This document shows, in pieces, positions 31,849 to 33,258 of a stretch of 64,000 nucleotides of DNA. Position numbers and translations under genes: made by a program. The number at the start of each line of letters is the position of its first letter. Positions within the stretch are counted from its first letter, which is position 1. The DNA comes from Albidovulum sp. (GTDB lineage: Bacteria > Pseudomonadota > Alphaproteobacteria > Rhodobacterales > Rhodobacteraceae). Location of the stretch: contig JALSJQ010000029.1 of the NCBI GenBank assembly GCA_026989275.1, positions 62,001 through 126,000 of the forward strand, in the 5' to 3' direction. The notes beneath the pieces were generated by a model, which did not search any database, was not told the DNA's origin, and worked only from the letters and a program-made list of their open reading frames with translations.

Positions 31849-32058
31849 GCGTTCCTCCCTCGTCGCGTCACATCAAGAACATGGGCGGCAGCTTCCGAAA
31901 TCCCCGGAACATCTGCAAGCGCCTCGTGGCCGCAGGCGTGTCCTGCCGCCCGGCAGCGTCGAGAGGCGCGACAAGGCCGCTTCGGGCGCGAAACCGCACG
32001 CAGCGGCCGCAGGGGCCCACGCCATCTTTCCGTCATAATCATTTGTTAAACATTGCCT

Positions 32059-32143
32059 GTCATGAATGACGCCGCGAGCGGATGGACCGTTCGTTTTCTT
32101 CCTCCCTGTTGGACTGGCCGCACCTTCGGGTGCGGCCTTTTTT
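32059..32143 (+). ncRNA. Candidate small RNA 1 with exposed anti-Shine-Dalgarno segment
   Basis: Non-coding stretch with the build of an Hfq-type small RNA. A 7-bp hairpin (CGAGCGG 32075-32081, CCGTTCG 32087-32093, one G-T wobble) is followed by an unpaired pyrimidine-rich segment with CTTCCTCCC (32098-32106), complementary to ribosome binding sites. An intrinsic terminator follows. The short dyad GTCAT-GA-ATGAC at 32059-32070 lies at the likely 5' end. A CATAAT box at 32034-32039 could be the -10 element; I see no good -35. No protein-coding gene on this strand lies upstream that would need this terminator. The family is not identified; several alphaproteobacterial small RNAs carry C/U-rich anti-Shine-Dalgarno loops. 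Confidence 0.55.
32116..32143 (+). terminator. Intrinsic terminator of candidate RNA 1
   Basis: A perfect 9-bp stem GGCCGCACC/GGTGCGGCC closed by a TTCG tetraloop (32125-32128) and followed by six T (32138-32143). This is one of the best intrinsic terminators in the window. Confidence 0.85.
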
Positions 32144-32407: not shown

Positions 32408-32436
32408 TTGACCGATGCGTCATCTTGCCCTAGCTT
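32408..32436 (+). promoter_or_regulatory. Candidate promoter of RNA 2
   Basis: TTGACC (32408-32413) and TAGCTT (32431-32436) are 17 bp apart. The -35 matches five of six consensus bases and the -10 only three of six. Predicted transcription start is near 32443, directly before the first of four consecutive hairpins. Confidence 0.5.
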
Positions 32437-32442
32437 CTGGGC

Positions 32443-32538
32443 TGCCGGCCGGTCCGGCAGGGAGGAAAGGGAGTGGTTCGGCAAGGAACCGCTCACGACC
32501 ACCACAGGTGGCAAGGGGGCGTCTTCGACGCCCCTTTT
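32443..32538 (+). ncRNA. Candidate structured RNA 2 (small RNA or attenuator leader)
   Basis: About 96 bases that fold into four successive hairpins. Hairpin 1 is CTGCCGG/CCGGCAG. A purine-rich linker (GGAGGAAAGG) follows. Hairpin 2 is GAGTGGTTC/GAACCGCTC with one G-T pair and loop GGCAAG. Hairpin 3 is CCACC/GGTGG. Hairpin 4 is an intrinsic terminator. The terminator is 78 bp before the IalB-type gene, so this could be either a free-standing small RNA or a terminating leader that controls that gene. The linker looks like a ribosome binding site, but no open frame follows. It is not the 4.5S RNA: the long helix and tetraloop of that RNA are missing. Family not recognised. Confidence 0.55.
32516..32538 (+). 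terminator. Intrinsic terminator of candidate RNA 2
   Basis: Stem GGGGCGTC/GACGCCCC (32516-32523, 32527-32534), loop TTC, followed by TTTT (32535-32538). Confidence 0.8.
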
Positions 32539-32616
32539 CACGTTGCGAGGGCCGGCGCGGTGTTGCATGGATAGGTGCGAATCATTCCGCAGCGCTTCAT
32601 CCGCCAAGGTGCATCC

Positions 32617-33258
32617 ATGACATCGTTTCCCCGCCATCGCCTTCCTCGCCGCCTGATCGCTCTCGGCCTGTTCCTTCTTCTCGCCGCCCCCCTGCCCGGC
32701 ACGGCGCAGACCGCTGGCGGCGCTCCTGCCTCCGGTTTTCCCGTCGGCCAGCCTGCCGCGCCCAAGGTCGGTCAGCCCTATGTGCGCGACAGTTTCGGCA
32801 AATGGCAGATCCGCTGCGTGAAGGCCCCCGAAGGGCAGACCGACCCCTGCCTGATGGTGCAGGTGATCACCGACGGCAAGGGCGCACCGGTCGCCGAGTT
32901 CCGCATCCAGCCGCTGGAAGGCAACGGGCCGGCCGTGGCCGGGGTCGAGGTGGTCACGCCGCTCGGCACGCTCCTGACCGAGAACGTCATCCTCACGATC
33001 GACGGCTCCACCCCGAAGCAGTATCCCTTCCTCTGGTGCGACCGGGGCGGCTGCATCGCCCGCATCGGCCTGACGAAGGAGGAACTCGAGAAGCTCCGCA
33101 AGGGCAAGCGTGCCGTCATCACCATCCGCTCGATCGCCAACCCCCAGCAACCGATCCCGCTGCTCCTGCCGCTCGAGGGCTTCACCGATGCCTGGAAGGG
33201 CCTCGCCGGAGCCACGGCACAGGCGAGGAAGGACAAAGACGGCAAGACCGGGCAATGA
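32617..33258 (+). CDS. Invasion-associated locus B (IalB) family exported protein
   Basis: A 213-residue protein with a signal peptide (LPRRLIALGLFLLLAAPLPGTAQT, cleavage near residue 30) and the IalB domain in residues about 50-190: FGKWQIRCVKAPEGQTDPCLMVQ, then FLWCDRGGCIARIGLT. The paired cysteines probably form disulfides in the periplasm. IalB proteins are widespread in alphaproteobacteria, including non-pathogens, so no virulence role should be read into the name. The ATG at 32617 was preferred over one at 32575 because the signal peptide then begins properly. Its leader contains candidate structured RNA 2. Confidence 0.88.
   Translation: MTSFPRHRLPRRLIALGLFLLLAAPLPGTAQTAGGAPASGFPVGQPAAPKVGQPYVRDSFGKWQIRCVKAPEGQTDPCLMVQVITDGKGAPVAEFRIQPLEGNGPAVAGVEVVTPLGTLLTENVILTIDGSTPKQYPFLWCDRGGCIARIGLTKEELEKLRKGKRAVITIRSIANPQQPIPLLLPLEGFTDAWKGLAGATAQARKDKDGKTGQ

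Follow-up and report, generated by a model that had tools for sequence, protein, structure and literature searches.

A HerA-like helicase gene (minus strand, Pfam HerA_C) and an IalB-family gene (PF06776) of Albidovulum sp. flank a 768-bp gap in which two small transcription units lie in tandem, both on the plus strand; the window, which is the whole stretch of DNA that was analysed, is 64,000 nt long. The locus raises the question of what the second unit, an RNA that ends just before ialB, does there, and whether it is connected to the first. The first-pass annotation had called the two terminated RNAs unrelated, and had offered two readings of the second, either another small RNA or a leader that controls ialB by premature termination. 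The analysis indicates that the locus is very probably an sRNA sponge beside one of its targets, an upstream sRNA that resembles SorX and SorY. SorX and SorY are stress RNAs that have been studied in the model phototroph R. sphaeroides; the Rhodobacteraceae comprise phototrophs and their marine relatives. The second RNA is referred to as the decoy, and the features of the locus are:

32069-32143, plus strand: upstream SorX/SorY-like sRNA (cmscan matches below cut-offs, own terminator, fold z-score)
32116-32137, plus strand: terminator stem of the upstream sRNA, followed by six T (terminator scan)
32099-32120, plus strand: anti-Shine-Dalgarno and pairing stretch of the upstream sRNA, TTCCTCCCTGTTGGACTGGCCG; its last 5 nt are shared with the terminator stem
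32408-32436, plus strand: decoy promoter, with TTGACC (32408-32413), 17 nt and TAGCTT (32431-32436)
32442-32537, plus strand: putative decoy (sponge) RNA, with ends placed by promoter and terminator (fold z-score, match to model R1)
32446-32467, plus strand: decoy pairing stretch, CGGCCGGTCCGGCAGGGAGGAA, complementary to 32099-32120 and doubling as a Shine-Dalgarno mimic
32442-32460, plus strand: decoy 5′ hairpin, with arms CTGCCGG/CCGGCAG here and GTCGG/CCGAC in the family form
32471-32511, plus strand: two middle hairpins of the decoy, a lineage-specific insertion
32513-32537, plus strand: decoy terminator hairpin with a short U tract after it (predicted by the fold; position conserved)
32617-33258, plus strand: IalB-family gene (Pfam E 1e-34), a neighbour of the putative device

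Promoter, fold and terminator of the decoy

The promoter-like TTGACC/TAGCTT pair reported initially is present with its 17-nt spacer, and is absent from the list that a generic sigma-70 scanner returns for the window. Across the family, 121 of 125 loci have the motif TTGAC-N16-19-TANNN[TC] ahead of the homologous RNA, compared to an expectation of 0.5 loci in mononucleotide shuffles; the spacing is 17 nt in 118 loci, and −10 variants include TAGCGT (65 times) and TAACGT (16 times). The four hairpins described at first reading are borne out by the minimum free energy fold of positions 32438-32540 (-53.6 kcal/mol, z = -3.3, equalled by 1 of 200 shuffles), which contains stems of 7 bp (32442-32448/32454-32460), 9 bp (32471-32479/32486-32494), 5 bp (32499-32503/32507-32511) and 11 bp (32513-32523/32527-32537). 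The predicted RNA has a length of about 95 nt, with its 3′ end at 32537. Its terminator has the strong stem ascribed to it, though it is followed by just four U, which is why the terminator scanner missed it; a terminator-like stem lies 3′ of the core in 124 of the 125 homologues versus 47 in shuffles.

In the alignment, the terminator arms vary freely and the 5′ core is nearly invariant. Most aligned loci consist of the 5′ hairpin and the terminator alone. The middle hairpins are a local insertion, otherwise found only in the sister species G001, and a few genera (G085, G008 and G002) have other inserts at the same position. The 5′ hairpin is kept family-wide, with 98.7% of alignment cells paired; two of its base pairs show a change on both sides, each in one sequence. 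Predicted folds form this hairpin in only 66 of 125 homologues, and the GGGAG of the decoys is partly buried in many of them, with a mean unpaired probability of 0.38 (n = 117). A search for known leaders and riboswitches in Rfam, suggested with the original reading, matched none: the decoy RNA has no Rfam match at E up to 10, and nothing in the window exceeds the cut-offs. Judged by these sequence features, the decoy is a conserved small RNA gene.

The upstream RNA resembles SorX and SorY

The upstream RNA is like SorX and SorY in its common CUCCCUGUUGGAC and terminator layout. The SorX model (RF02784) matches it with 40.2 bits (cmscan, E 3.8e-8; curated cut-off 46.6) and the SorY model (RF02651) with 40.7 bits (E 1.2e-6; curated cut-off 111), so that the window copy falls under both cut-offs. 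The SorY cut-off is exceeded in only 1 of 149 genomes, that of R. sphaeroides (G076), and a threshold of E 0.001 gives SorY-like RNAs in 138 of the family's 149 genera. The upstream sRNA represents a further locus of the SorX/SorY kind, separate from both genes. Its fold is stable (32060-32143, z = -3.4), and its CTCCCTG is invariant across 42 aligned relatives. The alphaR8/mmgR/suhB model (RF00519) gives only 16.6 bits (E 1.1; cut-off 41), and has no match over its cut-off in six genomes. The alphaR8 10-mer UUUCCUCCCU (PMC12559287) is absent from the upstream sRNA; the window has CUUCCUCCCU, identical at 9 of 10 positions.

Further, a TTAAC lies within 110 nt upstream of the SorX/Y-like sRNA in 78 of 106 loci, as a raw count without a control (about 32020-32065 in the window), and is often part of a longer element like CTTAACC(A/T)TTNGTGCCAGTCT. 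The TTAACC resembles a CtrA half-site. The SorX/Y-like sRNA thus appears to have a conserved promoter element of its own. The genome of the window has a second SorX-like sRNA gene (G000:C24:20188-20263, locus L261) with CCTCCCTGTTGG and a terminator. In another genome (G129:C1:2876211-2876459, L253/L263), a SorX homologue is followed, about 110 nt further on, by a second RNA with CCTCCCTGTTGGACTGG, making two sibling sRNAs in tandem.

Complementarity of the two RNAs

The description of two unrelated RNAs is contradicted by their sequences, which are mutually antisense over 22 nt. In particular, positions 32446-32467 pair with 32099-32120 in 22 contiguous pairs, G-U included, forming a duplex of -48.4 kcal/mol (duplexfold), the strongest of 43; about 17 nt of the sRNA's pairing part lie outside its terminator stem. 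In 109 genomes from 108 genera, the duplexes of neighbouring RNAs average -36.9 kcal/mol, compared to -16.8 kcal/mol (sd 4.2) for shuffled decoys and -17.5 kcal/mol for reversed decoys, where the 109 pairs are only those whose core fitted the search expression. Among these pairs, the median length of the longest unbroken run is 9, versus a shuffled mean of 6.2 (maximum 13); it is this low because many neighbours carry a central mismatch, and pairing is weak in two genomes (G070 and G155). Invariant columns of the decoy fall inside the complementary stretch, as do 8 of the at least 12 invariant columns of the sRNA, with the remainder in the sRNA terminator. The extended complementarity to an sRNA seed that characterizes RNA sponges is found here, over 22 nt in the window. 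As it carries a near mirror-complement of the working part of the sRNA, the decoy is most likely a sponge.

Pairing specificity between individual partners is slight: own pairs are barely better than swapped ones (-36.6 versus -36.1 kcal/mol, permutation p = 0.013). An ACUU in the sRNA co-occurs with an AA in the decoy loop (9/12 versus 7/94, Fisher 6e-7), and this intermolecular covariation was considered as proof of pairing. Mapped onto the IalB tree, for which three genera unclassified in the Fisher table were assigned by hand and outside which G002 and G155 lie, most of the ACUU/AA cases fall in one clade, which leaves only one pair on supported branches (seven on all branches). The covariation is therefore not significant after accounting for phylogeny, and was rejected as proof.

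Distribution across the family

A model of the decoy (R1), built from 46 loci with the window excluded, finds the window RNA at 32444-32547 (E 6e-6). Here, the family is the family group of the genome set used, which includes R. sphaeroides. At E 0.01, the model has matches in 136 of the 149 genera, three of these only at E >1e-4; the count is 121 of 132 among good genomes, and 90 of 103 in genera without a training sequence (the 46 training genomes sit among the 149). A SorX/Y-like RNA lies upstream of the decoy on the same strand in 115 of 135 loci, comprising 44 of 51 drawn through ialB and 71 of 84 further loci; in the remaining 20, no upstream sRNA was recognised. IalB is downstream of the decoy in 81 of the 84 further loci. 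In the first draw, ialB is present in 60 of 61 genomes, and the core was detected by script in 50 of 63 stretches upstream of ialB, with one more (G081) added by hand; in ten genera of this draw, the decoy core is absent upstream of ialB.

These counts depend on several choices. Alignment A1 left out four loci as longer or divergent (L008, which is the window, L002, L029 and L057) and is also without G081; alignment A2 left out L010, L060 and L002. Locus L060 was excluded from the pair counts as a chance upstream match, and L341 and L124 were removed from the count of upstream sRNAs, as the upstream motif there is not the sRNA. Nine of the 84 loci missed the core expression, and are counted in the 84 and in neither the 109 pairs nor the 125 homologues; eight of them are variants that read as decoys, and L349 is a weak second match in G008 without a core. 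The sRNA of L058 and the decoy of G081 were added by hand.

A strict 23-base core pattern occurs in at least 120 stretches. Among the 80 loci listed, with one match each, 77 belong to the Rhodobacterales by NCBI ranks (41 Roseobacteraceae, 30 Paracoccaceae and 6 with no family assigned); two more lack an order, and the remaining title, Maritalea mobilis, is a Devosiaceae name. Among these listed loci, 63 of 79 have the sRNA upstream and 67 of 71 have IalB downstream, where the sequence was too short for the upstream count in one locus (L167 to L209 included) and for the downstream count in nine. Over a class-wide draw, R1 matches 6 of 142 genomes at E 0.001, two in the family and four outside it. 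The best match outside (G189) reads as a plain terminator without the core, and was rejected; the other three are weaker (G058, G257 and G268).

The R. sphaeroides copy

Genome G076 was taken to be R. sphaeroides 2.4.1 because SorY and SorX fall on their published positions, with SorY at 1,632,645 versus a published 5′ end of 1,632,642 and SorX at 2,598,225 versus 2,598,224 (available text of PMC6238624). Its R1 match places a decoy on chromosome 1, minus strand, at about 1,426,521-1,426,603, and the sRNA beside ialB, near 1,426,724, is a further locus distinct from both SorY and SorX. The calculated duplexes of this decoy have free energies of -39.3 kcal/mol with SorX, -38.6 kcal/mol with SorY and -35.8 kcal/mol with its own neighbour. 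As its pairing with SorX and SorY is as good as that with its neighbour, and 20 of the 135 loci have no recognised neighbouring sRNA, the results fit a decoy for the whole sibling group. The R. sphaeroides copy, to which no named published sRNA could be tied, makes the decoy reading directly testable.

Proposed mechanism and alternative explanations

Taken together, the complementarity and conservation make it likely that the decoy RNA is a free-standing sRNA, expressed from a promoter of its own, whose function is to sponge (as a target mimic) the upstream sRNA and very likely also siblings of the SorX/SorY kind. We infer that the decoy would be transcribed from its own promoter as a separate small RNA whose 5′ part presents the Shine-Dalgarno-like GGCCGGUCCGGCAGGGAGGAA; that inside the cell, and probably on Hfq, this stretch would form some 17-22 nt of duplex with UUCCUCCCUGUUGGACUGG, the anti-Shine-Dalgarno stretch of the sRNA; and that the sRNA, once sequestered in this way, would no longer reach ribosome-binding sites, with decay of one or both RNAs as a probable outcome. 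The affected sRNAs may be the whole group, and the affected mRNAs those with a similar site. A wider proposal is tentative, with the balance of probability somewhat against it: a family-wide two-RNA module, in which an anti-Shine-Dalgarno sRNA and its own decoy stand side by side under separate conserved promoters (TTGAC-N17-TAGCGT for the decoy), would let the decoy set a threshold for the whole SorX/SorY group, and thereby link growth with the response to photo-oxidative stress across the Rhodobacteraceae.

The seed of the sRNA is an anti-Shine-Dalgarno sequence, with putative mRNA targets that share the decoy's kind of site. In the genome of the window, ACAGGGAGGAA occurs nine times versus once for the reversed pattern; two of the nine sites are the opposite strands of sRNA genes, and some others lie just before start codons. 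One candidate target (L372:865-1511) encodes a HupE/UreJ protein with ACAGGGAGGAA directly before its start codon. Another (L376:1501-1917) encodes a 133-aa protein with COX1 similarity below the Pfam cut-off; it too has ACAGGGAGGAA directly before the start codon, and its CCAACAGGGAGGAAG is fully complementary to the sRNA.

The same evidence bears on four other explanations. That the decoy is a terminated leader, or attenuator, of ialB is very unlikely: its position upstream of ialB in nearly all further loci, its terminated 3′ end and the lack of a separate ialB promoter motif in the window would all suit a leader, but the terminator arm pairs with upstream sequence hardly more than in a shuffled control (0.39 versus 0.33, one shuffle per locus), and is at least 70% paired upstream in 8 of 124 loci versus 5 of 124 when shuffled. 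In addition, a separate promoter-like motif for ialB follows the decoy terminator in 53 of 107 loci, compared to 3.0 in shuffles. Two genomes carry the pair with no ialB nearby: in G002, the pair (duplex -36.9 kcal/mol) lies beside another gene and the IalB gene is on another contig without a pair, and the stretch around the pair in G166 shows no IalB. Because there is no antiterminator signal and these pairs stand apart from ialB, the decoy was rejected as an ialB attenuator; of the two readings offered at the outset, the second small RNA stands and the leader with premature termination does not. The motif seen before ialB in about half of the loci reads TGACA-N14-18-TGCTA. An upstream ORF or leader peptide, starting at the GTG that follows the Shine-Dalgarno-like GGGAGGAAAGGGA in the window, is extremely improbable, as no ATG, GTG or TTG lies within 16 nt of GGGAG in 80 of 125 homologues; a small ORF on the decoy RNA was rejected because its start codon is not conserved.

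The roles of the two RNAs could also be reversed, with the decoy RNA as the main regulator, of mRNAs or of a protein, and the upstream sRNA as its antagonist, or with mutual silencing. Complementarity is symmetric, and the authors of the CJnc180/CJnc190 study propose the term antagonist for both of their RNAs (available text of PMC8687705). This direction is nonetheless unlikely: the upstream sRNA, one of the CUCCCUGU sRNAs, is similar to SorX and SorY, whose targets are mRNAs for transporters (available text of PMC8307010), takP and the polyamine transporter mRNA among them; its seed is a classic anti-Shine-Dalgarno sequence, whereas the decoy resembles a ribosome-binding site; the conserved part of the decoy is almost only the complement; and some genera retain the decoy without a recognised neighbour. 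There is a very slim chance that the complementarity has no RNA function, whether as the remnant of an inverted duplication that involved the sRNA gene or as an inverted repeat at the DNA level. Such an origin would be plausible for a nearby inverted copy, but the promoter, core and terminator have been preserved family-wide, and each RNA sits in its own promoter-terminator unit.

Relation to known systems

The closest precedent for a sponge of this kind is CrfA of Caulobacter crescentus, which sponges the sRNAs SisA-D, as demonstrated by RIL-seq, probing and compensatory mutations; SisA-D are alphaR8 sRNAs carrying UUUCCUCCCU as an anti-Shine-Dalgarno motif, and the antagonism of CrfA is aided by Hfq (available text of PMC12559287). 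By the published description of CrfA, the decoy is like it in anatomy: in both cases, a free sRNA presents a G/A-rich site to a family of alphaproteobacterial anti-Shine-Dalgarno sRNAs. What sets the decoy apart is its tandem placement and its spread across the family, and probably its sequence. It lies directly after its putative target and would pair over 17-22 nt through its 5′ end, whereas CrfA pairs through its second stem loop and SisA-D are located at different genomic positions (PMC12559287, in the text available); moreover, outside the family the 142-genome class-wide draw yielded only weak R1 matches. QrrX, which acts on the Qrr sRNAs of Vibrio, is alike in being a single sponge for several sibling sRNAs, in other bacteria and by description only (same text). 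CJnc180 and CJnc190 of Campylobacter jejuni form an antagonist pair that is cis-encoded on opposite strands (available text of PMC8687705), whereas the genes of the sRNA and decoy share one strand, where they follow each other and have a promoter each.

Within the same bacterial family, StsR and UpsM of R. sphaeroides are similar in that one sRNA targets another. StsR is 72 nt long, depends on RpoHI/II and binds UpsM and rpoE mRNA, and the word sponge is absent from the available text of that study (PMC8307010); UpsM derives from the dcw leader (available text of PMC5089854). sRNAs were also detected in Paracoccus denitrificans (PMC5107571), and Table 1 of a Ruegeria pomeroyi sRNA paper contains cis and known RNAs (PMC4809877; both in the text available). 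A search of the open-access literature, which covered papers other than the primary ones on SorX and SorY, found no description of the decoy RNA. The proposed mechanism is of a known kind, with CrfA as its precedent, in an arrangement for which no description was found in the open-access literature.

If the conserved decoy controls SorX and SorY, it would constitute a missing regulatory layer in R. sphaeroides and the marine roseobacters. If true, the decoy together with CrfA would suggest that alphaproteobacteria repeatedly control their anti-Shine-Dalgarno sRNAs with dedicated sponges.
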